DNA from: Caulobacteraceae bacterium
Lineage (GTDB): Bacteria > Pseudomonadota > Alphaproteobacteria > Caulobacterales > Caulobacteraceae
DNA: 48,512 nucleotides
Direction: 5' to 3'
Assembly: GCA_028290905.1 (NCBI GenBank)
Contig: JAQGIW010000028.1
Location: 1-48,512 of the forward strand
Below are positions 45-16,148 of the stretch, one piece after another. Both the position numbers and the translations under genes were made by a program. Position 1 is the stretch's first letter. Each line of letters starts with the position of its first letter. The notes beneath the pieces were generated by a model that was given only the letters and a program-made list of their open reading frames with translations, was not told the origin of the DNA and made no database searches.

Positions 45-221
45 TCAGATTAGGATCAAAGCGCGGCGAAGCGCTCGGTGTCGGCGAAGCCAGTCTCCGA
101 ACGCGATGAACTCTGCGGGATGCAGGCTCTGCTCCACCATCAGACGCGCTATCTCAAGGCGAAGGCTTTCCACGGCTTTCGCCAGCATCTGGCCCATCTC
201 CCTCCGGAAAGTCCGCCGAAT
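45..221 (-). pseudogene. AraC/GlxA-type regulator, C-terminal remnant
   Basis: The minus strand encodes the end of an AraC-type DNA-binding domain, with RRTFRREMGQ, AVESLRLEIARLMVEQ and HPAEFIAF. These align closely with the intact regulator at 11446-12420 ([21 protein letters not shown]). After EFIAF the frame is lost by about one base. The shifted frame continues ETGFADTERFAAL and then a stop, matching [10 protein letters not shown] of the intact copy. Everything upstream of the second half of the HTH domain is missing. The remnant ends next to the operator at 317-333. It is a decayed paralogue, not a functional regulator. Confidence 0.8.
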
Positions 222-316: not shown

Positions 317-333
317 GAGGGAATTTCGACCTA
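317..333 (+). promoter_or_regulatory. Regulon operator, copy 1
   Basis: GAGGGAATTTCGACCTA, preceded by TTGTCCCAATCT. It lies 102 bases upstream of the alpha/beta hydrolase at 436. About 65 bases around it are clearly similar to the region around copy 2. The consensus over seven copies is GAGG, 8-9 bases containing TTTCGA, then CCTC or CCTA. Regulatory function is inferred from recurrence and position. Confidence 0.65.
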
Positions 334-435
334 ACGGTGCTTCGCCCGTTGCCGTCCAATCGGCATTGAGACGCCGGGCGTCTTCGCCTCCCGGCTAGCG
401 GGCGCTCACGAGCGCCACTGTCAGAGGACATCTCA

Positions 436-1329
436 ATGACCCAGCTTACTTCAATGACTCAGCTAACTCACCAGACCGCAGCGACCCAATTCGTCGAGGC
501 CAACGGGATCCGCTTCGCCTATCGCCGGTTCGGCAAGGCTGGCGGCGTGCCGCTCGTTTTCAATCAGCACTACCTCGGCACCATGGATTACTGGGACCCG
601 GCGGTGACCGATGGCTTGGCTCGCGACCGCGAGGTGATCCTGTTCGACAATGCGGGCGTCTCCAGCAGCTCCGGCGAGGTCCCGACCACATTTGAAGAGA
701 TGGCCGCCAACGCCATCGCCTTCATCAAGGCGTTGGGCCTGAAGCAGGTCGACGTTTTTGGCTTCTCGATCGGCGGCCTCGTCGTGCAGGAGATCACGTT
801 GCAGGCGCCCGATCTCGTTCGCAGGATGATCATCGACGGCGCAGGTCCGCGCGGCGGTCAGGGCATGGAGCTGATCGCCGAGGCGACGGATCGGCTCTTT
901 GGCGTCCACCCCAAAGATCCGCCCGAGAGTGTCTGGCTCGCGGTCAAATTCAGTCCGTCCGCGGCAGGCCAGGCGGCGGGACGGGCGTACCTGAAACGCA
1001 CGCATCTGAGGCAGACGGATCGCGATCCCGAAGTGAACGACAAGGTGTCGCCAGCGCAGGTCGAAGCGATCCGCAATTGGGCCGTCAAGAAAAACGGGTC
1101 CGACGACTACCTGAAGACGATAAAGCAGCCAACGCTCATCGTGAACGGCAGTAACGACGTGGACATACCCACGGTCAATTCTTTCATCATGCAGCAGAAA
1201 ATGCCGTATGCGCAGCTGATCATCTACCCCGACTCCAATCACGGTGGGCACCACCAGTACCCCGAGCTGTTTGTGCGGCATGCGTCGTTGTTTCTCGGTG
1301 AACAGGGCGGTGAGTGCTCGCCGGGGTGA
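436..1329 (+). CDS. Alpha/beta hydrolase (paralogue A)
   Basis: A 297-residue alpha/beta-hydrolase-fold protein. The nucleophile elbow GFSIGG places Ser at residue 111, the acid is in NGSNDVDIP and the His is in DSNHGGHH, so the catalytic triad is complete. There is no signal peptide, so it is probably cytoplasmic. The substrate is unknown; family members include esterases, C-C hydrolases and cofactor-free haloperoxidases. It is closely similar to the genes at 2791 and 9173. The start at 436 follows AGAGGACATCTCA. The first residues are a tandem duplication (MTQLTS then MTQLTH), so a second in-frame ATG at 454 is also possible. It is the first gene after operator copy 1. Confidence 0.88.
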   Translation: MTQLTSMTQLTHQTAATQFVEANGIRFAYRRFGKAGGVPLVFNQHYLGTMDYWDPAVTDGLARDREVILFDNAGVSSSSGEVPTTFEEMAANAIAFIKALGLKQVDVFGFSIGGLVVQEITLQAPDLVRRMIIDGAGPRGGQGMELIAEATDRLFGVHPKDPPESVWLAVKFSPSAAGQAAGRAYLKRTHLRQTDRDPEVNDKVSPAQVEAIRNWAVKKNGSDDYLKTIKQPTLIVNGSNDVDIPTVNSFIMQQKMPYAQLIIYPDSNHGGHHQYPELFVRHASLFLGEQGGECSPG

Positions 1330-1727
1330 GCACGCCTCACACCAGTGAAGCGAATGCTCGGCGGCGCGCCGAGTTGGACCAACCATCACCACGGTCGACC
1401 AGAGTTGGAACCTTCTCATCAATTCAGAGTGGAGGTTGTTCCAACCGGCAGGCGCTCCCTGAAGGCGGCGGCAAGAGGGCTCCGCTGAGTTGTCCCAATT
1501 GGAGGGAATTTCGACCTAACGGCGCCGTCGCCCGATGCCGTCTAATGGTGGGCGTTGAGATCACGCAAGTCGTTCTTCGGCGACTCACGGACGGTGATGG
1601 ACGTTAGACCAGATCAACGCGCAAACCCTATCAACTGGCGGAGTCCAACGGCTAGCGCGTCGAAGACGCACGGCATTTCTACTGGACCAGCACAGAAACT
1701 GGTAGCAGCCAGACGAAGGAACGCAGA
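1330..1727. other. Intergenic region with operator copy 2
   Basis: About 400 bases between the hydrolase and the SDR. It contains operator copy 2 at 1502-1518 and its extended flank to about 1560. I see no convincing gene, hairpin or RNA in the rest. Confidence 0.5.
1502..1518 (+). promoter_or_regulatory. Regulon operator, copy 2
   Basis: GAGGGAATTTCGACCTA, identical to copy 1, preceded by TTGTCCCAATTG. It lies 209 bases upstream of the SDR at 1728. Similarity to copy 1 extends about 45 bases downstream, through a CGCCCGATGCCGTCTAAT-like stretch, which suggests the whole promoter module was duplicated. Confidence 0.65.
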
Positions 1728-2474
1728 ATGAGTACTCAAGTTGTCTTGATCACCGGCGCGCTGACCGGCATCGGCCGCGCCGCCGCCATCGCCTTCGCGA
1801 AGAAGGGGGCCAAGGTCGTGGTTTCCGGTCGTCGCGACGAAGCCGGCCAGGCGCTCGTCAAGGAGCTGCAGGCGCTGGGTTCGGAGGCCGAGTTCATCCA
1901 CGCCGACGTCCTGAAGGAAGACGATCTCCGCGACCTGGTCGACAAGACCGTCGCGCGGTTCGGCCGTCTCGATGTCGCGGTGAACAACGCCGCTAGCGAG
2001 GGCGCCGTCGGCCCGATCACCGACCAGACCCCGGAAAGCTTCGCCGCGACGTTCGACACCAATGTTCTGGGCGTGGTGCTGAGCATGAAGCACGAAGTGC
2101 GCGCCATGCAAGCCCAGGGCAGCGGCAACATCATCAACATCTCCTCGACCTACGGGCACGAGGGCGCGGCCGGCGCCTCGATCTATGTGGGCGCCAAGCA
2201 CGCCGTCGAAGGCATCACCAAGTCGGTGGCGCTCGAGACCGCCAAGTCGGGCATTCGGGTGAACGCCGTGGCGCCCGGTCCTACGGACACCGGCATGCTG
2301 ACCCGCTTCACCGGCACGGCGGAGAACAAGGCCGCTTTGGCGTCTCAAGTTCCTCTGGGTCGACTCGGCCTCTCCGAAGAAGTCGCCGACGGCATTGTGT
2401 TCATCGCGTCAGACGAGGCCCGCTTCATCACCGGCCACGTCCTCAACGTCGACGGTGGTCACAGCGCCAACTGA
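1728..2474 (+). CDS. SDR family oxidoreductase
   Basis: A classical short-chain dehydrogenase of 248 residues. The N-terminus carries TGALTGIGRA, the Rossmann glycine motif. NNAASEG is the NNAG-type motif, Ser is in NISSTYGHEG, and Tyr-Lys is in IYVGAKHAVEG. VDGGH lies at the C-terminus. It should catalyse NAD(P)-dependent oxidoreduction of a carbonyl or alcohol; the substrate is unknown. The ATG follows GAAGGAACGCAGA. A near-identical copy lacking its N-terminus lies inverted at 14589-15126. A deleted medium-chain oxidoreductase and a second hydrolase follow on the same strand, so these may be co-transcribed. Confidence 0.9.
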   Translation: MSTQVVLITGALTGIGRAAAIAFAKKGAKVVVSGRRDEAGQALVKELQALGSEAEFIHADVLKEDDLRDLVDKTVARFGRLDVAVNNAASEGAVGPITDQTPESFAATFDTNVLGVVLSMKHEVRAMQAQGSGNIINISSTYGHEGAAGASIYVGAKHAVEGITKSVALETAKSGIRVNAVAPGPTDTGMLTRFTGTAENKAALASQVPLGRLGLSEEVADGIVFIASDEARFITGHVLNVDGGHSAN

Positions 2475-2493
2475 TCCTGTCCAGAGGCATCCC

Positions 2494-2781
2494 ATGACTG
2501 AGAGCAAGAACCGCCAGTGGATCTTGAACGCTCGCCCCGCGGGCAAGTTGACCGGACTGGTGGCCAGGCGCGCGCGCATGAAGGGCTTTACCGCGCTTGA
2601 TTATCCCGCGCGGCTTCCCGAGGCCCTCGAGGCGCTGAGCCGTTGGCGGCGGGACGGCCGCCTCGTGCACAAGGAGGACGTTGCGTATGGCCTCGAGAAT
2701 GCGCCGAAAGCGTTACTCCGCCTGTTTTCCGGCGAGAACTTCGGAAAGCAGCTCATGAAAATCACCGATGCAGGGGCCTAG
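2494..2781 (+). pseudogene. NADP-dependent medium-chain oxidoreductase, internally deleted
   Basis: The frame is open for 95 residues but joins only the two ends of a roughly 335-residue protein. The N-terminus NRQWILNARPAG corresponds to NRQWLINGRPNG of the complete gene at 43116-44117. After LTG it jumps to MKGFTALDY, and it ends DVAYGLENAPKALLRLF and GENFGKQL, matching the C-terminus of that gene. The entire substrate and Rossmann core is missing. The open frame could still be translated, but it cannot be the parent enzyme. It sits 20 bases after the SDR and 10 before the next hydrolase, so the reading frame may persist for translational coupling. Confidence 0.85.
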
Positions 2782-2790
2782 GAGGCTACC

Positions 2791-3666
2791 GTGACGATCC
2801 ACACTCACCAGACTACGCCGACGCAGTTCGTCGAGGCCAAGGGCATCCGCTTCGCTTACCGGCGCTTCGGCAAACCGGGTGGCGAGCCGCTCGTCTTCAA
2901 TATGCATTTCACCGGCACGATGGATCACTGGGATCCGCTGGTGACCGACGGCCTCGCGGCGACGCGAGAGGTGATCCTGTTCGACAATGCGGGCGTCTCC
3001 AGCACGAGCGGCGAGACGCCGGCCTCGGTCGAAGAGATGGCGGCCAACGCGGCGGCGTTCATCAAGGCCCTGGGTCTGGCGAAGGTGGACGTCCTCGGCT
3101 TCTCCATTGGCGGGACGGTCGCTCAGGCGCTGACGGTCGCCGAACCTGGTCTGGTTCGCCGCTTGATTTTGGTGGGCACCGGTCCGCGGGGCGGAGAGGG
3201 CATGGCGAGCCTGACGCCTGAGGCCCAGGCCGTGTTCGGCGCGACCTATGCGAACCCGGACGAGGTGTGGCTGGGCGCCTTCTTCACGCCGTCCGAGGCA
3301 AGCCAGGCCGCTGGTCGCGCATTTCTGAAGCGGTTTCGCCTGCGAACGGAAGGCCGCGACCCCGAAGTCAGCGAACAGGTCGCGCCAGCCCAGCTCGAGG
3401 CGCTCGCGAAGTGGGGCGCGCCGCGCGCGGGCGCCCTCGATTATCTCCGAGAGATTACCCAGCCGACGCTGGTGATCAACGGTAGCAATGACGTGCTCGT
3501 CTATACCATGAATTCATTCATTCTGCAGCAAAACCTGCCCAATGCAGAGCTCATCCTCTATCCGGATTCCAATCACGGGTCACAATACCAATATCCCACT
3601 CTGTTTGTCGCTGACGTGGCGCGGTTTCTGGACGCTGAAGTCCCGTTTCAAATACAGAAGGATTAA
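2791..3666 (+). CDS. Alpha/beta hydrolase (paralogue B)
   Basis: A 291-residue alpha/beta hydrolase, a close paralogue of the genes at 436 and 9173. GFSIGG carries the nucleophile Ser, NGSNDVLVY the acid, and DSNHGSQYQYP the His. The start is GTG at 2791, preceded by a strong AGGAGG at the ideal distance. No signal peptide is seen. It is followed 5 bases later by the DUF427 gene, so the two are almost certainly one operon. The substrate is unknown. Confidence 0.88.
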   Translation: MTIHTHQTTPTQFVEAKGIRFAYRRFGKPGGEPLVFNMHFTGTMDHWDPLVTDGLAATREVILFDNAGVSSTSGETPASVEEMAANAAAFIKALGLAKVDVLGFSIGGTVAQALTVAEPGLVRRLILVGTGPRGGEGMASLTPEAQAVFGATYANPDEVWLGAFFTPSEASQAAGRAFLKRFRLRTEGRDPEVSEQVAPAQLEALAKWGAPRAGALDYLREITQPTLVINGSNDVLVYTMNSFILQQNLPNAELILYPDSNHGSQYQYPTLFVADVARFLDAEVPFQIQKD

Positions 3667-3670
3667 GATC

Positions 3671-4078
3671 ATGGCTAATAAGGCGATGAAGAGTCCCGGG
3701 CCCGACCACCCCATTACGATCGAAGCGAACCCATCTCACGTCGTGGTCACCGTCGGCGGAAAGGTTATCGCCGACACCCGCAATGCGTTGACGCTTCGCG
3801 AGGCTTCCTATCCGCCCGTTCAGTATATCCCCCGTCGGGATGTTGAAATGACCGCGCTAACGCGCAGCGAACACACGACCCATTGCCCCTACAAGGGCGA
3901 CGCTTCCTACTACAGCATCCCAGCTGGCGGGGATCGTTCCGTCAATGCGGTGTGGACTTATGAGACCCCGTTGGAAGCGATGGCGCAGATCAAGGATTAC
4001 GTCGCCTTCTACCCGGACCGCGTCGACGAAATCACCTTAGAGATCCTCGCCTCCGATCGACGGCCTGCGGTAGGCTAG
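3671..4078 (+). CDS. DUF427 domain protein
   Basis: A 135-residue small cytoplasmic protein of the DUF427 family. It shows the typical order: ITIEANPSHVVVTVGGKVIADT, then RRDVEMTALTRSEHTTHCPYKGDASYYSI, then WTYETPLEAMAQIKDYVAFYP near the end. (These motifs are quoted as separate landmarks of the family.) The molecular function is not established. DUF427 proteins often lie beside oxidoreductases and hydrolases in alphaproteobacteria. The ATG at 3671 follows GGATTAAGATC, which overlaps the end of the hydrolase gene, consistent with translational coupling. Confidence 0.85.
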   Translation: MANKAMKSPGPDHPITIEANPSHVVVTVGGKVIADTRNALTLREASYPPVQYIPRRDVEMTALTRSEHTTHCPYKGDASYYSIPAGGDRSVNAVWTYETPLEAMAQIKDYVAFYPDRVDEITLEILASDRRPAVG

Positions 4079-4672
4079 GCCGCCCAAAGGGCGCTGTGAG
4101 GCCGGAATCCCTAAAGATCGGACACCCGAGGCGCCTTAACGGCGCATCGGCTCAGACCTCGCACCCACCTTCCCTCTCGGGGTCGCCAACCCTCGGCCGA
4201 CGGGAAAGGCTGCATCCGGGCATCGAGCAGTGGGATCGCTCGCCGCCGAGGCCAACGTTGGTCTCGCCTGGCCACTTCTTTGAATACACTGCAGATTATT
4301 GAGATGAATTCAGAGAGGCCGCAACAGTCGCCCCAACAGGCGTTTTGGAAGCCATGTGAGCAACCGCGTCAGACCGAGCCCGACGGCTTCCACCCCAGCG
4401 TGGAGGGCGCCGGGCGGCGGGCCTGTCCCAATTGGAGGGATTTTTGACCTCACGAGGCAGCTGGCTGCTCGCATAAAATTCGTGTGGGTAAGCGACTGTA
4501 TTGAGGTTCTACCGATGCTCGTTGGGTTTGCCGACCAGCCTACATGGTCCTCTTCGGCGGCGCTGGCAGGCCCGGCGAGCTTCGAAAGGGTTTCCAAAGC
4601 GCCCTCCAACCCAGCGGTCTGGTCTCCGCGCTCCGCGGGAGGCTGGAGGATACATCTCGGAGGACTAAAGCC
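4079..4672. other. Intergenic region with operator copy 3
   Basis: Nearly 600 bases with no convincing gene. A small GC hairpin (CGCCCAAAGGGCG, near 4082) follows the DUF427 stop and may slow transcription. Operator copy 3 lies at 4435-4451. Short frames here have no recognisable content. The last 15 bases hold the ribosome site CGGAGGA for the SDR at 4673. Confidence 0.5.
4435..4451 (+). promoter_or_regulatory. Regulon operator, copy 3
   Basis: GAGGGATTTTTGACCTC, preceded by CTGTCCCAATTG and followed by ACGAGG. Here both arms, GAGG and CCTC, match perfectly. It lies 221 bases upstream of the SDR at 4673, in the same orientation as that gene. Confidence 0.65.
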
Positions 4673-5419
4673 ATGAACGAGCACGTCGTTCTAATTACGG
4701 GCGCGTTGACCGGCATTGGCCGCGCAACCGCATTCGCCTTCGCCGACCAAGGTGATCGAATCGTGATCGCTGGGCGCCACCAGGACGCCGGTGAAGCGCT
4801 GGTTTCGGAACTGCGCGCCAAGAACGTCGAGGCCGAGTTTCTACCGGCGGACGTTCGCCACGAAGAAGACGTGCGCAACCTTGTCGACCGGACCGTCTCA
4901 AGGTTCGGCCGCCTGGACGTGGCCGTAAACGCCGCAGGCACCGAGGGCAAGCCCGGTCTACTCACCGAGCAGACTGCGGAGAGTTACGCCGCGACCTTCG
5001 ACACCAACGTCCTGGGGACCATGCTCAGCATGAAGCACGAATTGCGCGTGATGAAGGCGCAGGGCAAAGGCAGCATTGTCAACATCTCCTCGACCTACGG
5101 CCACCAGGGCGCCGCCCGCGCGCCAGTCTACGCCAGCAGCAAGCACGCTGTCGAAGGGCTGACCCGGTCGGCGGCGCTCGAGGCCGCAGGGGCTGGCGTC
5201 CGAGTCAACGCGGTCGCGCCGGGGCCGATCCAAACCGGCTTGCTCGACCGTTTCACCGGCACCGAGGAGAACAAGGCGGCGCTGGCGTCAGGCGTGCCGC
5301 TCGGCCGGATCGGGACTCCCGACGAGATCGCCCGCATGATCGTCTTTCTTGGATCGGAGGCGGCGTCGTTCCTGACCGGCCAGATCGTCACCGTTGATGG
5401 CGGCAAGACGGCGGGCTGA
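4673..5419 (+). CDS. SDR family oxidoreductase
   Basis: A 248-residue classical SDR: TGALTGIGRA for the cofactor, NAAGTEG in place of NNAG, NISSTYGHQG with the catalytic Ser, VYASSKHAVEG with Tyr and Lys, and VDGGK at the end. It is a clear paralogue of the SDR at 1728 but more diverged than the fragment at 14589. The start ATG at 4673 has CGGAGGA upstream. The NTF2-like gene follows 34 bases after its stop, so the two probably form an operon under operator copy 3. Substrate unknown. Confidence 0.9.
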   Translation: MNEHVVLITGALTGIGRATAFAFADQGDRIVIAGRHQDAGEALVSELRAKNVEAEFLPADVRHEEDVRNLVDRTVSRFGRLDVAVNAAGTEGKPGLLTEQTAESYAATFDTNVLGTMLSMKHELRVMKAQGKGSIVNISSTYGHQGAARAPVYASSKHAVEGLTRSAALEAAGAGVRVNAVAPGPIQTGLLDRFTGTEENKAALASGVPLGRIGTPDEIARMIVFLGSEAASFLTGQIVTVDGGKTAG

Positions 5420-5453
5420 GCGAGTTGCGGACCCCAAAGATCGAGGAGGCGGC

Positions 5454-5900
5454 ATGATGACCGCGCAGCCCGACATTGACCGAGACAAGTCCACAGTGGA
5501 CGCTTTTTACAGACTGGGCGCGGAAGGCCGCCTTACGGACTTTGCGTCGTACGTGCATCCAGACTTCAGAGTCACCGCACCCAATTATTTGCCCTGGGGC
5601 GGCACGCACCTGGCCGCATTCTTCAACGACGAAATCCTTCCCAATCTGCCGAAGGAACTAGATTTCTCGCGGTTCAGCTACGACAGCGTGACCGCGGAGG
5701 CCGGTCGGGTCGCCGTGTTGGCCAACATGGGCGTAACTGGCGCCGACGCGATGATCAAGATCGCCGACCACTGGACGGTTAAGGATGGAAGGGTCACGGC
5801 GCTCTGGGTCGCCTACTTCGAGCCCCAGGCCCTCCTGGACAAGCTCGGCATCGTCCACAGTCTCGGACGCCGCCTGACGCAGACGGAACCTCAATCGTGA
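5454..5900 (+). CDS. NTF2/SnoaL-like protein
   Basis: A 148-residue protein of the cone-shaped NTF2/SnoaL fold type. It has an N-terminal helix (DKSTVDAFYRLGAEGRLTDF), then YVHPDFRVTAPNYLPWGG, and a final strand pattern IADHWTVKDGRVTALWVAYFEP. Family members are small isomerases, cyclases or accessory proteins, and no specific reaction can be assigned. The start is chosen at the ATG at 5454 because GAGGAGGCGGC directly precedes it; an immediately following second ATG is also possible. It is downstream of the SDR at 4673. Confidence 0.8.
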   Translation: MMTAQPDIDRDKSTVDAFYRLGAEGRLTDFASYVHPDFRVTAPNYLPWGGTHLAAFFNDEILPNLPKELDFSRFSYDSVTAEAGRVAVLANMGVTGADAMIKIADHWTVKDGRVTALWVAYFEPQALLDKLGIVHSLGRRLTQTEPQS

Positions 5901-5985
5901 TCGGTCTGGCTGGGAAAACGGCCCTCGTCACTTGAGCCCCCACGGCATCGGCCGCGTCAGCGCGTTGGCCCTTGCCCAGGTGGCA
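5899..5985 (+). pseudogene. SDR N-terminal scrap
   Basis: Starting at the GTG overlapping the end of the previous gene, the sequence reads VIGLAGKTALVT and then a stop. In the next frame it continues PHGIGRVSALALAQ. Together these are the first 25 or so residues of an SDR: beta-1 strand, TGxxHGIG motif and first helix, with a frameshift in the glycine loop. Nothing further of the gene remains before the next gene at 6009. Confidence 0.65.
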
Positions 5986-6008
5986 GGCCGGGAGAAGGAA
6001 TACTGGAG

Positions 6009-6728
6009 ATGACCGATCTGCTTCAGTTTGCGATTGAAGCGCACGGTGGCGAGGCCCGCTGGGCAACGGTCCGGTCCATCGTCGTCTCGCTCAACTTCTA
6101 TGGCGCCCTCCTCGAACTAAAGGGCTTTCCGGGCCACCGACGCCCGACGGTGTCGATTGATGCGCGAAATCCCCGGACGGTAATCCAGCATCTCGAGGAG
6201 GGTGATGATCGGTGGATATTCACCCCCGATCGCGTTTGGATCGAGAAACCGGACGGCTGGATCGAGCAGGAGCGATCGAATCCGCGCGGGGCGTTTGCTG
6301 GCCACGTCCGGACCACGCCATGGGATCGACTCCACCTCACCTATTTCTTGGGCTATGCGATTTGGAATTACCTTGCAGCTCCGTTCCTCTTCACTCGACC
6401 CGGGTTTTCAACGCGGGAGCTCGAAAATCACACCGAAACCCGCGACGTGTGGCGGGTCTTGCAGGTCACCTATCCAGACGGCTTTCCGGCGCACACCAAG
6501 GTGCAGAAGCTGTACTTCGACGAGGCCGGTCTGCTGAAGCGGCTGGACTACGAAACCGATGTCCTGGGCGGTGTCGCAGCCCACTATTGCTATGACCCCA
6601 AGACCTTCGACGGTCTCATAATTCCGACGCTTCGCCGGGTGGTAAGACGCACGCCCGAGGGTCCGATCCTCTCAGGCCCGACTTCATTTGCTCTCGACTA
6701 CACCGATGTGCGGGTCGACCGGCTCTGA
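6009..6728 (+). CDS. Uncharacterised protein, paralogue of 10297-11022
   Basis: A 239-residue protein that I do not recognise. It has no signal peptide or membrane segment. It shares with the gene at 10297-11022 an overall plan: MTDLLQFAIEAHGG at the start (MSDLLELAVAAHGG in the other), NPRGAFAGHVRTTPWDRLH, YFLGYAIWNYLAAPFLFT and ETDVLGG. Alternating strands with many aromatic residues suggest a beta-rich fold that could bind a hydrophobic ligand, but this is inference. AAGGA lies 10 bases before the ATG. It lies downstream of the SDR/NTF2 operon of copy 3 and may belong to it. Confidence 0.8.
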   Translation: MTDLLQFAIEAHGGEARWATVRSIVVSLNFYGALLELKGFPGHRRPTVSIDARNPRTVIQHLEEGDDRWIFTPDRVWIEKPDGWIEQERSNPRGAFAGHVRTTPWDRLHLTYFLGYAIWNYLAAPFLFTRPGFSTRELENHTETRDVWRVLQVTYPDGFPAHTKVQKLYFDEAGLLKRLDYETDVLGGVAAHYCYDPKTFDGLIIPTLRRVVRRTPEGPILSGPTSFALDYTDVRVDRL

Positions 6729-6761
6729 GAAGTCGTCTCTCGATGAACGCCAGGCTGCCAC

Positions 6762-7145
6762 TCAGCGTGTTGTGCCAAGCGTCACGAAGAGGATGGTAGC
6801 AGGCCGATCGCCACGATTGCGCCAGCCGTGTCGCGTCGCCTGCTGGACCACGACGTCGCCGGCGGACAGGTGGGGGTCTGCGTGAGGACGCTCGATAATG
6901 CGTTGCAATTTCGGCGGTGGACCGTGGAGGTAGTTCGGACTGAAGACCCCGGCGCCGTCGCAGAGGGCCGTCACCTCAAAGGCGCCGACCTTCACCCGGT
7001 AGAATCCCGGGACCTGCGTCTCACTCTGGGCCGCCGGCTGTGCTGCCGCCGCACCTTGCTGCAGCATAATCAGGCCTCCGAGCAGGGCCAGCAACATCAG
7101 AACGAGTCTCAGGGGCCTTCCCAGCATCGCAACGCTCCTCGCCAT
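6762..7145 (-). CDS. Chimeric secreted protein: metallo-hydrolase N-terminus joined to cupin C-terminus
   Basis: The 127-residue frame begins with a signal peptide (hydrophobic LRLVLMLLALLGGLIML, then AAAAQPA). VPGFYRVKVGAFEVTALCDG follows, as in the N-terminus of periplasmic metallo-beta-lactamase-fold hydrolases. Their HxHxDH metal motif is absent. After about residue 80 it becomes LSAGDVVVQQATRHGWRNRGD, the last strands of a small cupin. The remaining cupin metal ligands are also missing. It is therefore a fusion of two gene ends, probably non-catalytic. Operator copy 4 is 39 bases upstream. Translation could also start at the ATG at 7127. Confidence 0.6.
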   Translation of the reverse strand: MARSVAMLGRPLRLVLMLLALLGGLIMLQQGAAAAQPAAQSETQVPGFYRVKVGAFEVTALCDGAGVFSPNYLHGPPPKLQRIIERPHADPHLSAGDVVVQQATRHGWRNRGDRPATILFVTLGTTR

Positions 7146-7183
7146 CGCCGAGGTTCACCCCACGCAAGAGCCTTGGCGCTCGT

Positions 7184-7200
7184 GAGGTCGAAAAATCCTC
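7184..7200 (-). promoter_or_regulatory. Regulon operator, copy 4
   Basis: On the minus strand GAGGATTTTTCGACCTC, preceded by GTCCCCATTC and followed by ACG. Both arms are perfect. It lies 38 bases upstream of the chimeric secreted protein gene, in that gene's orientation. Confidence 0.65.
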
Positions 7201-7439
7201 GAATGGGGACGAGCGTTGGGTCGCCAGGGCCTCTTGGATTGACCGGCCCCATCACTCGCGAAGATCCGGCTGCGCCGCCACCGAGCCAATAGTCCGGTGG
7301 GCAGGCTGCTGAGAACCTTCGGCATGAGCGACCGGGCGCCCGGCTTGACGCTGCGGCGACACGTTGATCCGGAGCGTGGTGGTCTGGTCGCCGAACGAAA
7401 GTGAGCCTGCCCTGTGATGTGTCGCCGGCCTACTACCGC

Positions 7440-8837
7440 TCAAGCTTGTGTCATCCACCCTTCGGCGCCCATGGCTGCTTGCCGGAGCGCTTCCGACCTC
7501 GTGGGGTGTGGGTGACAGGTGCGTGCGACATCCTCGCCGTCAGCCTGAAACGCCATCGCCACACATGCCTCGCCGATAATCTCGCTGGCTTGTGGACCGA
7601 TCATGTGCACACCGAGAATCCGGTAGTCCTCGCGGCTGGAGATAACCTTCACAAAGCCCTCGCTCTCATGAGCAAGTCTGGCGCGGCTGTTGGCGGAGAA
7701 CGGAAACCTGCCGACCCTGTAACCTCTGCCGGACGTCCGGACCTCGGCCTCGGTTTCGCCGACCCAGGCGACCTCTGGGCTGGTGTAGATGACATTCGGA
7801 ATAACGTCGTAGTCCATCCTGCCAGGCCGGCCGGCCAGGAGCTCAATACAGGCGATGGCCTCGTCCTCCGCTTTGTGCGCGAGCATCGGTCCACGGGTGA
7901 CGTCGCCGACCGCCCAGATCCCAGGGACGGCCGTCGCGAATGGTTCCGTCGGGATAAAGCCTTGCTTGTCGAGGGAAAGGCCGATCGCTTCCAGGCCAAG
8001 GTCGCCGACGAAGGGCTGACGGCCGACCGCGCTCAGGACCACGTCCGCCTTGAGGCTCCGGATTGTGCCGTCGGCCAGGTTCCGGACTCTGACAACCACC
8101 TCATCCTCGCCGGCGAGCGCGTCCAGCGCCATGGTGAGGAGGCGGAAGCGGAGATTCTGCTTCTCGAGGATCCCCCGAAGCGCGCGCGAAATCTCCTCAT
8201 CGGCGCCCGGGATGATGCGATCGTGGGCCTCCACAACCTCGACGTCGGAGCCCAGGCGGCGCCAGACCGATCCCAACTCAAGGCCGATGCAACCCGCGCC
8301 GATAATCAGGAGTCGCCGTGGAGGTTCGCGGAGCGCGAGCGCCCCGGTCGAGTCGACAATGCGATTTTGGTCGACCACCACGCCCGGTAGTGAGGATGGA
8401 ATCGACCCGGTCGCAATCACAACGTGCCGCGCGGAGAGAGTGACTTTGGTCTGTTCCGCCCTGCGTACGGAGATCCGCCCGGAACAGTTCAGGCGCGCCC
8501 AGCCTTCGATCCGATCGACCCCATTCTTGTCGAAGAGGTCTTCGATGCTGCGGCCGAGCGCGTCAACGCTCGCCTGCTTCTGACTCATCATGATGGACAG
8601 GTCGAATTTGGGGCTTACCCTGATACCAAACTCGGCGAACTTGGTGCGGGCGAAATCGAAAAGCCCGGTGGCGTGCAAGAGGCTCTTCGATGGTATGCAG
8701 CCGTTGTTGAGACATGTGCCGCCCAACACCGAGTTGCCCTCGACGCAAGCTGTCTTCAGTCCCAGCTGGCTCGCCCGGATGGCGGCCGTGTAGCCGCCAA
8801 CGCCGCTGCCGATCACCACTACGTCGTAGTCGGTCAT
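7440..8837 (-). CDS. lpdA: Dihydrolipoamide dehydrogenase-like flavoprotein (E3)
   Basis: A 465-residue class I pyridine nucleotide disulfide oxidoreductase. VVIGSGVGGYTAAIRA binds FAD, GGTCLNNGCIPSKSLLHA holds the redox-active disulfide, and IIGAGCIGLELGSVW binds NAD. The C-terminus has HPHPTRSE, the His-Glu active-site pair contributed to the partner subunit. Family enzymes reoxidise lipoamide in 2-oxoacid dehydrogenase complexes. No E1, E2 or lipoyl-domain gene is adjacent; the nearest E1 pair is 36 kb away on the minus strand. It may serve another disulfide substrate. The ATG at 8837 was preferred over an upstream frame extension. Operator copy 5 is 86 bases upstream. Confidence 0.85.
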   Translation of the reverse strand: MTDYDVVVIGSGVGGYTAAIRASQLGLKTACVEGNSVLGGTCLNNGCIPSKSLLHATGLFDFARTKFAEFGIRVSPKFDLSIMMSQKQASVDALGRSIEDLFDKNGVDRIEGWARLNCSGRISVRRAEQTKVTLSARHVVIATGSIPSSLPGVVVDQNRIVDSTGALALREPPRRLLIIGAGCIGLELGSVWRRLGSDVEVVEAHDRIIPGADEEISRALRGILEKQNLRFRLLTMALDALAGEDEVVVRVRNLADGTIRSLKADVVLSAVGRQPFVGDLGLEAIGLSLDKQGFIPTEPFATAVPGIWAVGDVTRGPMLAHKAEDEAIACIELLAGRPGRMDYDVIPNVIYTSPEVAWVGETEAEVRTSGRGYRVGRFPFSANSRARLAHESEGFVKVISSREDYRILGVHMIGPQASEIIGEACVAMAFQADGEDVARTCHPHPTRSEALRQAAMGAEGWMTQA

Positions 8838-9172
8838 ACCCACCGTTTCGAGCACCCAATTCTCGCGGCGCCGTCTTCGTGGGCCGCGTGATCAAAACTA
8901 GGCGAGGGGTCGGGTCTCGTGGGAGGTCGAAATTCCCTCCTATTCGGTCGGGCTGACGCCGTGGCGAATAGCCCGGCACGAGTTTTTCGACCTGCGCCTT
9001 AGTCAACCTCTTCGCGCGGCAGGTCAGGTATTGCCTGACGTCGGCGTACCGCGACTACATCGACAAGAGCTGCGCGGTCGCGACCCTCGCCACTGACGCT
9101 TGGCGCCAGGATCCTCACCTACCTGACACCGGCTGCGGAGCTGTGGCTTCGCCATCCATCGCGGGCTTGGCC
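8838..9172. other. Intergenic region with operator copy 5
   Basis: It contains operator copy 5. The remainder (8960-9172) has short reading frames on both strands that look protein-like in places but match no family I can name; they could be further gene debris. Confidence 0.4.
8923..8939 (-). promoter_or_regulatory. Regulon operator, copy 5
   Basis: On the minus strand GAGGGAATTTCGACCTC, followed by CCACGAG. Both arms are perfect, and the core is identical to copies 1 and 2. It lies 85 bases upstream of the flavoprotein gene, in its orientation. Confidence 0.65.
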
Positions 9173-10030
9173 CTATGGAGACGCGTCAAGGAACATCTGG
9201 CAGTGGGCGACAAATAGGTCAGGATACTGAAACAAGGAGCCGTGGCCGGAATCCGGATAGATGATCAGCTGGGCATTGGGAATGCCTTGAGACAGAGTGA
9301 ACGAGTTGACTGTCGGGACCATCACATCGTGACTGCCGTTCACCACTAAGGTCGGCTGCGTGATGTCCCTCAGCTGGGCGAACCGCTCTCCATGAACCTT
9401 GCGCCAGTCGGCTATCGCGGCCCTCTGAGCCGCCATCGTCTTGGGGGATGTGGGCCGGTCTGCGTCAACCTTGCGTAGGTGACGACGCTGCCAGAAGGCC
9501 CGACCTGCGGCTTGGCTGGCCGCCGATGGGCGAAAAAAGAGATAGAGGAAGGCGTCCAGGCCGCTCTCACCCGTGTTGGGGTCGGTCGACGCGCCCAACT
9601 CCAGATACTTTGGGTCCTGCGAGGGTTCGCCGCCGCGGGGCGCGGTGCCGACCAGTATGAGGCGCCGCACAAGGGCTCGATGCCGCAGCACCAGCGCCTG
9701 GGCGATATAGCCGCCGATCGAGAAGCCGAGAAAATCGGTCTGCGGCAGGCCAAGGGCGTGAATGAAGGCGGCGGCATGATCCGCCATCGCTTCGATAGTG
9801 TCTGGAGTCTCTCCGCTGGAGTTGGCCACACCGGCGTTGTCGAACAGGATCACCTGGCGGGCGGCGGCCAATCCGTCGGTCACGGCAGGATCCCAGCTGT
9901 CCATGCCGGCGCGAAAGTGCTGCATTAGCAACAATGGTGGCCCGGAACCCTCCCCGAACCGGCGATGGGCGAACACGACGCCATTCGCCTCGACGAACCT
10001 GGTCGGCGCGTTGACGTGGGTGTGCGTCAT
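9173..10030 (-). CDS. Alpha/beta hydrolase (paralogue C)
   Basis: A 285-residue alpha/beta hydrolase. It is the third and most diverged of the set with the genes at 436 and 2791. GFSIGGYIAQA holds the nucleophile, NGSHDVMVP the acid, and DSGHGSLFQYP the His, so it should be active. The ATG at 10030 is preferred because AGGAGG lies seven bases before it; a GTG three codons upstream overlaps that ribosome site. Operator copy 6 lies about 60 bases upstream. Substrate unknown. Confidence 0.88.
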   Translation of the reverse strand: MTHTHVNAPTRFVEANGVVFAHRRFGEGSGPPLLLMQHFRAGMDSWDPAVTDGLAAARQVILFDNAGVANSSGETPDTIEAMADHAAAFIHALGLPQTDFLGFSIGGYIAQALVLRHRALVRRLILVGTAPRGGEPSQDPKYLELGASTDPNTGESGLDAFLYLFFRPSAASQAAGRAFWQRRHLRKVDADRPTSPKTMAAQRAAIADWRKVHGERFAQLRDITQPTLVVNGSHDVMVPTVNSFTLSQGIPNAQLIIYPDSGHGSLFQYPDLFVAHCQMFLDASP

Positions 10031-10063
10031 AGACAGCACCTCCTCTTTTCGGGAGAGACCAGA

Positions 10064-10285
10064 CTAAAGCGCACGAGGGTGCGATGGACGAGGTCGAAAG
10101 GCCTCGAATTGAGACGTCGGGCGTCGCACGCAGACGACATCGAAGGGCGCGAGCCGCTCAATTAGCGGGCCGGTTTCCTCCAGGTGGTCCGTGAAGACCG
10201 TAATCTCGGCCTTTGCCGTGACGGGCGCCCAGTCCGCCGATTCCAACGCTGCATTCTGATAATCATCGAGTATCGCGACTTTCAT
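10064..10285 (-). pseudogene. D-2-hydroxyacid dehydrogenase, N-terminal fragment
   Basis: The frame begins MKVAILDDYQNAAL, continues ADWAPVTAKAEITVF and reaches LAPFDVVCV, the start of NAD-dependent 2-hydroxyacid dehydrogenases of the D-isomer type. Homology stops at about 10127, some 53 residues in. The remaining codons read through the operator copy 6 region, so the rest of the enzyme, including the NAD and catalytic domains, is lost. AAGGA precedes the ATG, and it follows the gene at 10297 by 11 bases. Confidence 0.75.
10090..10105 (-). promoter_or_regulatory. Regulon operator, copy 6
   Basis: On the minus strand GAGGCCTTTCGACCTC, preceded by TCTCAATTC. The spacer is one base shorter than in the other copies. 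It lies inside the open frame of the truncated hydroxyacid dehydrogenase and 59 bases upstream of the hydrolase at 9173-10030, in that gene's orientation. Confidence 0.6.
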
Positions 10286-10296
10286 CGCCGAGGTCC

Positions 10297-11022
10297 TTAA
10301 GCGGCGACATACCAGAGGCGCCTGATGTCGATCGAGACCAAGATCGGCGCATCGATCTTCCGATTGTCGGCTCCGCGCGGATGAACCCGCCGTCGATGCG
10401 GCGCAAACAGGCCACCATGGTCGTAATAGTCGCCGATGTACTGAGCGGCCTGGGCTCCCCCGAGGACATCGACGGTGTAATCGTGGCGCCGCATGAGCCC
10501 GTCCGGTCCGAAGTAGGTCACCTGCTCGCGGGTGTGGCTCGCGATATGGTCCGGAAAGATAACCCTCAGCCGTCGCCAGGTTTCGCCTGCCTCCTCCCAC
10601 GGCTCGATCTCCGCCGTTTCAAATCCGGCATAGGTGTAGAGAAACGGTTGAGTCAGGTAGGTCCAGAGCGCGTAGCCATCGAAGTAGGCGGCATGTAGAG
10701 CATCCCAGGGTGTTTCGCCGACGTGGCCGGCGAAGGCTTCGCGCGGATTATCACGAACTTCGATCACCTGCCCTGCCGCGTCCTCGACCACGAGCCGGGT
10801 TGGGGTGAAGCGAACCCGCCGGTCGGAGCCTCCGAAGCGGCCGAGGGTCGCCTGCTGGAGGCGGGTGTTCGCTTCGTATGTGCTGTTCTCAAAAAGGCCG
10901 GTTTGACCCTTCAGGTCCCAGAGCACACCGCCCACCGATAATTCGAGCGAGACACTACGTTGTGCGTTCCACCGCTCCAGGCCGCCATGCGCGGCGACGG
11001 CCAACTCCAGTAGATCGCTCAC
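10297..11022 (-). CDS. Uncharacterised protein, paralogue of 6009-6728
   Basis: A 241-residue protein of the same unrecognised family as the gene at 6009. Conserved landmarks are AHGGLERW, NPREAFAGHVGETPWDALH, YFDGYALWTYLTQPFLYTYAGFE, HDYTVDVLGG and PILVSIDI. There is no signal peptide or membrane helix. The start is GTG at 11022, supported by a strong AAGGAGGTG. It is followed at 11 bases by the truncated hydroxyacid dehydrogenase, so it once headed an operon with that enzyme. No good operator copy lies directly upstream. Confidence 0.8.
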   Translation of the reverse strand: MSDLLELAVAAHGGLERWNAQRSVSLELSVGGVLWDLKGQTGLFENSTYEANTRLQQATLGRFGGSDRRVRFTPTRLVVEDAAGQVIEVRDNPREAFAGHVGETPWDALHAAYFDGYALWTYLTQPFLYTYAGFETAEIEPWEEAGETWRRLRVIFPDHIASHTREQVTYFGPDGLMRRHDYTVDVLGGAQAAQYIGDYYDHGGLFAPHRRRVHPRGADNRKIDAPILVSIDIRRLWYVAA

Positions 11023-11445
11023 GGCGACACCTCCTTAGACTGCAGTGGTTCAGCCGCGGCGCAACGGCCTTGCGAGCCCGCCCGGAAGGCGACCCAGTCC
11101 CTTCTCAGACGTCACCCCCAACTTCACCCTGAGTGGTCGTTGAGCCGGCCATCTTGCTAAGCCGCCGACGCGCGGGCGCGAACGTCGTTTTTACCTCTTT
11201 TTGAGACGCCGAAGTCGTCATCGCTCTGCGGCGGAACCACGACGCGCGTTAAGAGTTGTGAAAATGGCCCTCGGAATGGCGGCTTGGTAGGAGGGCAGCC
11301 ACGGTGGGTTGACGTCTGGACGGCCCAAATGCCGCGCGCGTCTCGGGCGACGGGCAGCGGATGGCAGTTGCCAGTCGGTCCGCGGCTGCTCAATACTAGA
11401 AGCCGACCGATCGATGCCTTCTGAGTCCCGACGGGGAGGCCCGCG
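11023..11445. other. Divergent intergenic region before the AraC-type regulator
   Basis: A 420-base gap between two divergent genes. It contains a degenerate operator-like half-site at 11181-11197 followed by TTGAGACGCCG. No gene is supported; a short minus-strand frame from 11393 has no recognisable content. Confidence 0.45.
11181..11197 (+). promoter_or_regulatory. Degenerate operator-like site before the AraC-type gene
   Basis: AACGTCGTTTTTACCTC keeps the right half of the regulon element (TTTTT, A, CCTC), but the GAGG arm is lost. It points toward the regulator gene 249 bases away. If bound, it would allow autoregulation; this is weak. Confidence 0.3.
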
Positions 11446-12420
11446 ATGATCGAGATAGCGCTCGCTGTTTCGCCCGGCTTTCAGATGATGATCTTCGCCG
11501 CCCTCTCGGTGTTCGAGGTCGCCAACGTTTGCACCGGTGAACCCCTTTACGAAATCCATGTCCTTTCCGAGCAGGGAGGCGAAATCCGTAGTTCGCTTGG
11601 AATGCCGATCAAGACCGCGGGATTCGAGAGATCGGACTTCGACACCCTTATCTTAGGCGGCCTAATCGACGTAGCGCCACCAAATCCGGAAGGCCTGCTT
11701 CAGTTCATCCGCAGATGTTCCGTGTCATGCCGTCGGGTCGGCTCAATTTGCACCGGTGCCTTCATGCTGGCCGAGGCTGGAGTGCTTGATGGGCGTCGCG
11801 CCACGACCCACTGGCGATACGCGCCGGAACTACGCGCTCGCTACCCTAAAATCTCGGTCGAGGAGGATCTCATCTACATCACCGATGGTCCGATCTGGAC
11901 GTCCGCGGGCATGACCGCCGGCGTCGACCTGATCCTCGGGATGATCGAGATGGACTTCGGCGCGGAGGTGGCGCGGTCCACCGCCCAGATGCTCGTCCTC
12001 TATCACCGGCGGGGAGGCGGACAGTCCCAGCATTCAGCCTTGCTCGAGATGGATCCAAAGACTGACCGGGTCGGGCGGGCTCTGGAATATGCAAGGGCCA
12101 ATCTCCAGCAAAAGCTGACGGTGGACCAACTCGCCGACGCCGCATGTCTCAGTCCGCGCCAATTCAGCCGCGCGTTCCGAGAAGAGACGGGCCTGACGCC
12201 GGCCAAGGCGATCGAAAACCTTCGGCTCGAGGCGGCGCGGCTGATGATGGAGCAAACCCGGCATCCCGCCGAGTTCGTCGCGATGGAAACCGGCTTCGCC
12301 GACCCTGAGCGCATGCGTCGCGCTTTCCTGCGCTCCTTCGGCCAGCCTCCTCAAGCCGTGCGCCGGGCCGCGCGGATCCGGGCCGCCACAAGCTTGCGCC
12401 CCCTGGAAGCGACCACCTAA
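11446..12420 (+). CDS. GlxA/AraC-family transcriptional regulator
   Basis: A 324-residue regulator. Residues 1-190 form a DJ-1/PfpI-like (class I glutamine amidotransferase fold) domain, with LILGGLIDV and the elbow [14 protein letters not shown]. Residues 215-310 form the AraC-type double helix-turn-helix: [20 protein letters not shown], then [20 protein letters not shown], then [14 protein letters not shown]. Such proteins activate or repress local genes in response to small molecules. The ATG follows GGGAGGCCCGCG. It is the only intact regulator among the operator-bearing genes and the natural candidate to bind the GAGG-N9-CCTC element. A frameshifted remnant of a paralogue lies at 45-221. 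Confidence 0.9.
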
Positions 12421-12456
12421 GCCGGCGAATCGAAGGCCGTTTTGAACGTCGCGCTT

Positions 12457-12600
12457 GCGCGCGCGGTGCCACTTCGTGGGACTGGCGTCGGGCATCGACT
12501 GCACGGCCTGGTCTTCAGGCGAAAGCGGCCAAGCCAGGCGTTCGGTGCGCGCCCTCACCGCTCGGTATTGGTCTACAAGCGAATTGCCCCTGCGATCGGT
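12457..12600 (-). pseudogene. egtB: EgtB N-terminal remnant (ergothioneine synthesis)
   Basis: On the minus strand the sequence [40 protein letters not shown] is the conserved N-terminus of EgtB, the iron-dependent hercynine sulfoxide synthase. That motif normally continues HTTWFFE, but here homology stops after HRAR at about 12457, next to the end of the AraC-type gene. No ATG is evident. It lies downstream of egtD on the same strand, so an egtD-egtB operon was cut here. Confidence 0.75.
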
Positions 12601-12683
12601 GCTTGGCGCCAGAGGCGAATGTGACGGCGCTCCGATTCGGGAAGATGTTCGATCGTCAAGCACCCAACCGTCCTCCAGCGACC

Positions 12684-13640
12684 TCAGGACGCCAGCAAGA
12701 AAATTCCGAACGCCGGCGAAGGATTCAAATAGCTGGCCGCCACCCGCCAACGCGCGCGCTCCGCCAAGTCGGCGAAGGCGGCCGGGTCGTGCTTGTAGGA
12801 GTTTTCGGTGTGAATGGTCTCGCCTGGCTCGAACTCCAAGACCCAGCCGCCGATCTCGACGCGCTGCTGTCGCCGGCTCACCAGATGCATTTCGATGCGG
12901 CTGGCGACGGAGTTCCACACCGAAAGGTGCTCAAAACTCTCCAGATCAAAATCGGCGCCGAACTCGCGGTTGAGGCGCGTCAGGACGTTCTTATTGAATG
13001 CTGCGGTCACGCCCTGGTCGTCCGCATACGCGGGGATGAGAACCTCGGCTGGCTTGGCCAGGTCCGCACCCACGGCAAATTTCGACCCCGGCCCCAGCAC
13101 GGCGCGGGCGTTGCGCAGGAACTCTACAGCCTCGTCGGGCGAGAAGTTGCCGATCGTCGAGCCTGGAATGAAGCCGACGACCGGTGAACGCGCCGCGGCC
13201 GCAGGCAACCGCACGGGCTGAGTGAAGTCGTGGACCAGGGGGGATACTGCGAGGCGTGGGTAGCGTTCGCGCAGCATCTGGGCGGCGTGCTCCACGGCGT
13301 CACGGCAATTGTCGATCGGTACGTAGCGGCGGATTTGCGGCGCCGCATCCAGCAACAGGCGGGTCTTGGTGCTGGATCCGCTGCCGAACTCGACCAGCGT
13401 CGCATCCTGAGGAACAAAGGCGGCGATGTCCTCGGCGACCTGCCCCAGCAACGCCGTCTCGGTGCGGGTGACGTAGTATTCCGGCAGCTCACAGATCGCT
13501 TCGAACAGGCGCGAGCCTTCGGCGTCGTAGAAATATTTGCTGGGGATGCTCTTCTGAGACGCGGTCAACCCCGCGAGCACGTCTTCGGGGATCGAATACG
13601 CGACGTGGCGGTCGGCGACGGACGCGTGCATTGACATCAT
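12684..13640 (-). CDS. egtD: L-histidine N(alpha)-methyltransferase
   Basis: A 318-residue SAM-dependent methyltransferase that trimethylates histidine to hercynine, the first step of ergothioneine synthesis. Landmarks are [18 protein letters not shown] and [10 protein letters not shown] near the N-terminus, [17 protein letters not shown] for SAM binding, [22 protein letters not shown], and HTENSYKHD near the end, which supplies substrate-binding residues. Full length for the family. The start has AAGGACCCCGGG before ATG ATG. It follows the NTF2-like gene by 92 bases. Because egtB survives only as a stub downstream, the pathway cannot be completed from this locus unless another egtB exists. 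Confidence 0.92.
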
Positions 13641-13732
13641 CCCGGGGTCCTTAAGTTGGGGGCAGCACGGCGCCCGGCCGGCGAGTGGCGATTTCGTCGG
13701 AGGCGGCCGCTGCTCCGCTGCGTCCGAGGCGG

Positions 13733-14134
13733 TCAGGCGGGGAAATTATCGCCGAACATCGGTCGGCCGCTGACCGAGGTCGCCTTGTCAGCCTCATCCT
13801 CGACGACGTCCCAGTGCTCCGCGAGACGACCCGCCTCCACGCGCACAACATCGAGCACGATCCACGCTTTGGGGCTCGCAAGACCGGTGAAACGGCCGTG
13901 CAGCATCAGCTTGTCGCCCTCGGCAAAGATCAGGCCATTCTCGTAGCGTAGTGTCTTGGGACCGTTCTTGATCAGGTTGAACAGACCTTCCCGGCCTGGC
14001 GGAATGTGTGCGCTGTGCTGGATGTAGTCGGGGGACCAGAACGCCTCGGCGGCCTGGTAGTCCTTCTCGTTGAAAAGCGTGTCGAACGCCTTCAGCACAA
14101 GCGCCTTGTTCTGTTGCTCGATGGTCTGCGTCAT
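13733..14134 (-). CDS. NTF2/SnoaL-like protein
   Basis: A 133-residue SnoaL-type protein: NKALVLKAFDTLFNEKDYQAAEAFWSP, then YIQHSAHIPPGREGL, then FAEGDKLMLHGRFTG, and AEHWDVVEDE at the end. (These are consecutive landmarks.) It resembles the stand-alone SnoaL-like polyketide-cyclase-type proteins common near oxidoreductases; the reaction is unknown. The ATG at 14134 was preferred because GAGG precedes it by about 7 bases; a TTG 7 codons upstream is less likely. Operator copy 7 lies about 110 bases upstream, and egtD follows. Confidence 0.85.
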   Translation of the reverse strand: MTQTIEQQNKALVLKAFDTLFNEKDYQAAEAFWSPDYIQHSAHIPPGREGLFNLIKNGPKTLRYENGLIFAEGDKLMLHGRFTGLASPKAWIVLDVVRVEAGRLAEHWDVVEDEADKATSVSGRPMFGDNFPA

Positions 14135-14243
14135 GAATCGCCTCACGGGATACAATCTTGGACAGAAGGCGAAGCGGCCTCGATTGCATGCGGCGTCGTT
14201 GCTCCGCCCGCCAGAACGTTAGCCGCAGGCGATGGGCTGTTGT

Positions 14244-14260
14244 GAGGTCGAAAACCCCTC
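14244..14260 (-). promoter_or_regulatory. Regulon operator, copy 7
   Basis: On the minus strand GAGGGGTTTTCGACCTC, followed by ACAAC. Both arms are perfect. It lies 109 bases upstream of the NTF2-like gene at 13733-14134, in its orientation, and would also control egtD. Confidence 0.65.
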
Positions 14261-14469
14261 AAATCCAGCCACCTGGGCCGAATACAAGCGGCGGACGATC
14301 GATACCCAACCCGAAAAAGCCGGAGCTACCTGAAGCAGCGCGATAGCGACTGGCCCCATTTCCGATAACGCCAGGGCTGATCACGCCGCAACTTAGTGAT
14401 GGACAACGACAATTTCTGATATTGTTCCTGATACGCCAAATGTCTAATAATTACAACAGTTTATGTTTT

Positions 14470-14486
14470 CAGACGTTTTCGACCTC
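14470..14486 (+). promoter_or_regulatory. Orphan partial operator, copy 8
   Basis: CAGACGTTTTCGACCTC followed by ACATG. The core and right arm match; the left GAGG arm is degenerate. It points right toward the truncated SDR, which is on the opposite strand, so it no longer serves a gene. Confidence 0.45.
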
Positions 14487-15126: not shown

Positions 15127-15840
<714 letters not shown>

Positions 15841-16148
15841 GCGGCGGTGAGGATAGCAGGGCGTGAACGGATACCCGGCGCCTAGTGACAAAAATGTCCG
15901 TCCAACGTTCCACGCCACCGTTCCACCCCTGCCACTGTCGCTCGCGCCTGCCGATGACACGCATCGATCGGCGACAGAACTTTGAACCTTGTTCCCGTTC
16001 CAAGACATCAACCCATTGCCCCCCACAGGGCGAGCAGGGTCATGGGAGGACCTTCATGCCGGTGGCGACCATTGGCCGGACTCTGAATTCCGACGGCAAC
16101 TGGGCGACCCCAACCGGAAGGATCCCCGCGATGCGTAAGCGCCTGACC

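Follow-up and report, generated by a model that had tools for sequence, protein, structure and literature searches.

In a 48,512-nucleotide stretch of a Caulobacteraceae bacterium (GenBank assembly GCA_028290905.1, contig JAQGIW010000028.1, positions 1 to 48,512 of the forward strand; hereafter the window), seven copies of a promoter element lie within the first 14.3 kb, and we consider it quite likely that they are operators of the GlxA/AraC-type regulator encoded at 11446, by which a local gene set would be controlled. Judged from the DNA sequence, the true unit is a 26-bp site of the form (T/C)GTC-N18-GACC, followed at a fixed spacing in most copies by a -10-like hexamer. The genes which would be regulated (SDRs, hydrolases, a flavoprotein and egtD) suggest a function in detoxification or redox stress.

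The preliminary description of this DNA had named a 17-bp element with a GAGG/CCTC frame as the mark of seven promoters, at 317, 1502 and 4435 on the plus strand and at 7184, 8923, 10090 and 14244 on the minus strand (c1 to c7 below). All seven were recovered at these coordinates, and every copy is oriented toward the gene downstream of it, with c6 being a 16-bp form of the frame (one base fewer). The pattern GAGG-N8/9-CCTM gave 26 rows in the window versus 8.63 in 100 shuffles (sd 3.86, largest 18); 12 of these rows were the seven sites and 14 were other places. Exact matches to GAGG-N3-TTTYGACCTM numbered seven in the 5.23-Mb genome, six of them in the window and one on contig C294, where an eighth copy precedes a GlcG/HbpS-like gene (by Pfam). 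With up to two mismatches the same genome held 109 matches versus 42 for the reversed pattern, so that the 17-mer by itself, when loosened, lacks specificity. On the other hand, a scan of the genome for random placement found the extended 27-mer CCCAATTNGAGGGANTTTCGACCTMAC (up to three mismatches) only at the five window sites c1 to c5 and on C294; c6 and c7 were missed by this form.

Although the copies are real, the conserved unit is 26 rather than 17 bp: when the copies were aligned, conservation exceeded the 17-mer, as TGTCCCAATT precedes GAGG and a TATAAT-like hexamer follows on the downstream side. The half-sites of the 26-bp site are TGTCCCAATT and, on the reverse strand, GGTCGAAATT, an inverted TGTC...GACC arrangement and not direct repeats. 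The best hexamer begins at site position 50 or 51, and good hexamers stand at equal distance in c1, c2, c3, c6 (TTTAGT), the C294 copy and the copy in G342 (no further genome carried the element). No -35 box was evident in the spacer between site and hexamer, and the predicted open reading frames (ORFs) start 41-224 bp past the end of the site. If the start point is assumed from the -10-like hexamer at -12, the site would span roughly -61 to -36, and a -35 box would be lacking there. A site next to -35 fits an activator, as in AraC-family regulators. Under the proposed mechanism the regulator would bind as a dimer upon detection of a signal by its DJ-1/PfpI domain, and the bound protein would recruit RNA polymerase and activate the hydrolases, SDRs, SnoaL-like proteins, flavoprotein and egtD. 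Two other views of the element were dropped: GAGG-N-CCTC as the true dyad fits the conserved operator columns of relatives worse than TGTC...GACC does, and a -35 of an extracytoplasmic function (ECF) sigma factor, judged from sequence only, would involve a GGAAT that is present in only some copies.

The evidence which links the element to GlxA comes from the promoters of related regulators. We collected 80 loci with a regulator 60-66% identical to the window GlxA, including Rhizobium, Bradyrhizobium, Dyella, Cupriavidus, Sphingomonas and Caulobacter relatives. TGT-N20-ACA was present in 51 of 81 upstream regions (the 80 relatives' and the window's own). A fitted model placed a site above 20 bits in 74 of the 80 regions, these scores being partly by construction since the model was fitted to the very regions scored; with this model four regions (L111, L132, L139 and L141) stayed under 12 bits, and in L139 and L141 a site precedes an SDR at another place in the locus. 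Read toward the divergent gene, the consensus of the relatives' site is TGTCCTAAAAGGTGGTATATATGACA, which holds an additional TGTC and in which the outer pair is inverted too. Of 79 distinct relatives' loci, 71 have a TA starting at site position 50. Moreover, 78 distinct loci have a divergent ORF of 120 aa or more, and in 73 of them this ORF falls into a single SDR cluster (in L108 the SDR was checked by Pfam). Six loci with sites were inspected: in five the site precedes an SDR, and the sixth has one site before a thiolase and another before an SDR. Two relatives' sites away from GlxA precede the same SDR type. The Sphingopyxis locus L141 has two strong operators of the GlxA type, at 4389 and 8617, of which one precedes an SDR and the other a thiolase.

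The window elements align to this operator without gaps, c2 being identical to the consensus at 16 and c3 at 18 of 26 positions, and all six gapless elements retain nine of the 12 near-invariant operator positions, in the correct register. Register and strand agree with the relatives' site, and so, within one base, does the distance to the -10-like hexamer in the copies that have a good one. A matrix built from other genomes (78 sites, 19 after thinning, with the own genome and G342 left out) was run over 96,974 window positions: the site upstream of GlxA itself (11183-11208) ranked 1st, followed among the elements by c3 (2nd), c2 (4th), c5 (9th), c1 (10th), c7 (13th) and c4 (14th), and the top matches of this matrix on C294 and on contig C25 of G342 were the elements as well. 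With a 20-site matrix, one site of which comes from an own-genome GlxA paralogue, the combined score of the six elements was 24.8, while the permutations averaged 3.7 and peaked at 23.3, so that none of 3000 column-permuted matrices reached the observed value, and a register shift of 1-8 bases gave at most 7.8; for the earlier matrices (first, symmetrised and 35-column), two of 1000 permutations each reached it. The choice of the protein at 11446 as binder, made at first from proximity alone, is thus upheld at the level of sequence by the other-genome matrix, register, strand and mostly the -10 spacing, but the count of regulated promoters needed correction. The related site in the GlxA intergenic region had been missed. 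An early view of our own, that GlxA was not the regulator as the 17-mer was absent from the 80 loci, was overturned by the relatives' own upstream site.

The regulator (11446-12420, plus strand, 324 aa) combines an N-terminal DJ-1/PfpI-type domain (PF01965, 2.6e-16) with a C-terminal AraC helix-turn-helix (PF12833, 1e-21; PF00165, 2.5e-13). Compared with the 80 relatives, its first recognition helix is unchanged and there are differences at several residues in the second helix-turn-helix region. Its own, diverged site (11183-11208, minus strand, CGTCTCAAAAAGAGGTAAAAACGACG) points toward the divergent ORF 10297-11022 (minus strand, 241 aa, without a Pfam match), with TAGCAA at site position 50 (11154-11159).

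Three elements lie on the plus strand. The site of c1 (306-331, TGTCCCAATCTGAGGGAATTTCGACC), with the -10-like TCCAAT at 355-360, precedes an alpha/beta hydrolase (436-1329). Behind c2 (1491-1516, TGTCCCAATTGGAGGGAATTTCGACC; TCTAAT at 1541-1546) follow an SDR (1728-2474), a short fragment of zinc-alcohol-dehydrogenase type (2494-2781), an alpha/beta hydrolase (2791-3666) and a DUF427 gene (3671-4078), while c3 (4424-4449, TGTCCCAATTGGAGGGATTTTTGACC; TAAAAT at 4474-4479) is followed by an SDR (4673-5419), a SnoaL-like gene (5454-5900) and an ORF without a Pfam match (6009-6728), of which the ORF divergent from GlxA is a paralogue (42% identity). On the minus strand, c4 (7186-7211, CGTCCCCATTCGAGGATTTTTCGACC) precedes a 127-aa ORF without a Pfam match (6762-7145); c5 (8925-8950, CGACCGAATAGGAGGGAATTTCGACC; TAGTTT at 8895-8900) a dihydrolipoyl-dehydrogenase-like flavoprotein (7440-8855); c6 (10092-10116, CGTCTCAATTCGAGGCCTTTCGACC, a 25-bp form with one base missing; hexamer at 10063-10068) an alpha/beta hydrolase (9173-10039); and c7 (14246-14271, TGGCTGGATTTGAGGGGTTTTCGACC; TAACGT at 14216-14221) a SnoaL-like gene (13733-14155) and egtD (12684-13640). 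A half-site at 14470-14486 (plus strand, CAGACGTTTTCGACCTC) is inverted relative to c7 and has no gene in its direction.

Several observations weigh against GlxA operators as the explanation of the elements: i) The near-invariant positions 9, 18 and 26 are changed in them; ii) They score 1.8-17.4 bits, versus 35.5 for a typical relative's site (L080); iii) Half of the top 14 positions with the other-genome matrix (ranks 3, 5-8, 11 and 12) are unrelated; iv) c6 is outside the top 25 with that matrix and ranks 392nd with the 20-site matrix, because of its deleted base; v) The -10-like hexamer is weak in c5 and c7, and c4 has none that convinces (TGGGGT); vi) The 17-mer with at most one mismatch occurs in none of the 80 relatives' loci, and with two mismatches there are 19 matches in them versus 32 for the reversed pattern; vii) Among 82 sites ordered by similarity to the elements, that of the window GlxA itself comes only 24th, several relatives' operators being slightly nearer; viii) The closest GlxA in G342 (89% complete) is only 62% identical; ix) Two GlxA paralogues of the own genome, on C130 (61%) and C115 (59%), have typical operators at their own promoters and could act instead.

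The last three points would also be accounted for if the elements were operators of the same type on which either a paralogue (on C130 or C115) acts or else a regulator absent from the assembly. We regard this as unlikely: the window GlxA sits among the elements and a broken second GlxA copy adjoins c1, while A13, C6 and the loss of A26 are common to its own site and most elements and rare in relatives. Thus the local GlxA is probably the acting protein, as far as sequence comparison can tell.

The copies might alternatively be duplicated promoter segments with no regulation in common, scattered as local genes were duplicated and decayed. Indeed c1, c2 and the C294 copy share longer duplicated flanks (77-266 bp of similarity), so these three are not independent events; the SDR and hydrolase genes are paralogous, and several genes near the elements are truncated or duplicated. 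However, c3 to c7 have only the site and not the flanks in common, orientation and mostly the hexamer spacing are kept, and the bases shared among copies are those conserved in the relatives' operators, which leaves such passive spread improbable as an account of the whole set. Still less credible is binding by a regulator of another kind (LysR type or winged-helix STAND): similar SDR-GlcG-hydrolase-DUF427 operons adjoin a LysR gene in Mesorhizobium and on Rhizobium plasmids, and a winged-helix/AAA regulator on a Bradyrhizobium plasmid, and the own genome has 17 places (21 matches listed), several full-length, that match the Bradyrhizobium-plasmid winged-helix type, but the element is not in those operons, and eight loci around the own-genome winged-helix regulators gave one 2-mismatch match only and no element. 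Many such winged-helix/AAA (STAND-type) regulators, some in tandem pairs, lie on contigs C287, C190, C288, C251, C15 and C261 of this genome (G000).

At least one exact 17-mer match occurs in 44 of 390 family genomes, with at most two per genome outside the own genome, and the spot-checked matches L033 and L034 fall in coding sequence. The extended 27-mer is found in two of 388 family genomes (the own genome and G342) and in one of 385 class genomes (the own genome only). Both on C294 and in G342 the element precedes the HbpS/GlcG-like gene, and the two contigs are interrupted within this gene. The loci concerned, L032 (own genome) and L150 (G342), are from different genera and start at the identical base within it, which suggests that shared or repeated sequence broke both assemblies. 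Plasmids gave no DNA match to window positions 1440-1640. Twelve stretches with AATTNGAGGNNNTTTYGACCT on viral contigs, several being near-copies of one another, were treated as chance; none of the 12 has the flanking consensus or any of 17 query proteins.

The operator, tied to one divergent SDR in relatives, appears here to have spread to seven nearby promoters and, on C294, to the GlcG/HbpS-like gene. In the simplest history, a regulator-operator unit was duplicated and neighbouring genes then captured operators. A second GlxA-like helix-turn-helix persists beside c1 as a broken remnant (68-215, minus strand) in two pieces in different frames (64% and 80% identical). More tentatively, the regulator may have been rewired from one divergent SDR to a local multi-promoter regulon, in that the unit of GlxA and operator underwent duplication, one copy of the regulator broke (the remnant), unrelated genes such as egtD and the flavoprotein captured operators and the DNA specificity shifted together with the regulator's own operator; this is a possible course of events rather than the expected one, and if it were true the locus would be a snapshot of the birth of a regulon.

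Two further observations concern the surroundings of the elements. A 191-bp fragment at 15682-15872, 93% identical to the start of a dinB-like gene on C294 (L032, 1097-1287), stands at the right edge of the element region. By eye, copies of the hydrolase and SDR genes elsewhere, in L201 (~3330-3420) and L202 (~5140-5230), have a different upstream stretch in common (CATATCCCTTTCCGCGCCTTCTG...), which may be a further shared promoter element.

The 26-bp operator with its fixed -10 distance would permit regulon prediction in many genomes of the widespread GlxA/SDR clade, for which no description of the operator was found in the open-licence literature, and the window, as a case of the operator before several genes, makes the spread of a regulon testable. 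The regulator itself is of a known kind, the AraC activators with a DJ-1/PfpI domain, while the proposed regulon is new. The regulator's best NCBIfam match is FtrA (PRK09393; 236.4 bits over residues 20-310), and as the cut-off of that model is 425 bits the protein is not FtrA by this measure. CdhR, GbdR, SouR and ArgR of Pseudomonas likewise join an AraC helix-turn-helix to a DJ-1/PfpI-like (GATase-1-like) domain, and for that group catabolic inducers are known. According to excerpts of two reports (PMC5806209, PMC10963909), a CdhR-type gene lies divergently to the operon that it targets, CdhR is described as a class I activator which binds direct repeats, and the half-sites are GGTCGC for CdhR and TGTCGC-N6-GNAA for ArgR. 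As far as these excerpts go, CdhR GGTCGC and ArgR TGTCGC are close to the GGTCGA and TGTCCC of the window element, but the CdhR and ArgR half-sites form direct repeats whereas the halves of the window element are inverted. The GlxA-SDR divergent pairs defined here (Rhizobium, Bradyrhizobium, Dyella, Cupriavidus and others) share with the window the operator register and, for the copies with a good hexamer, the -10 spacing. On the other hand, those pairs mostly have one divergent SDR target, whereas in the window the operator stands before several nearby promoters, the ORF divergent from GlxA is not an SDR, and bases 9, 18 and 26 are changed.

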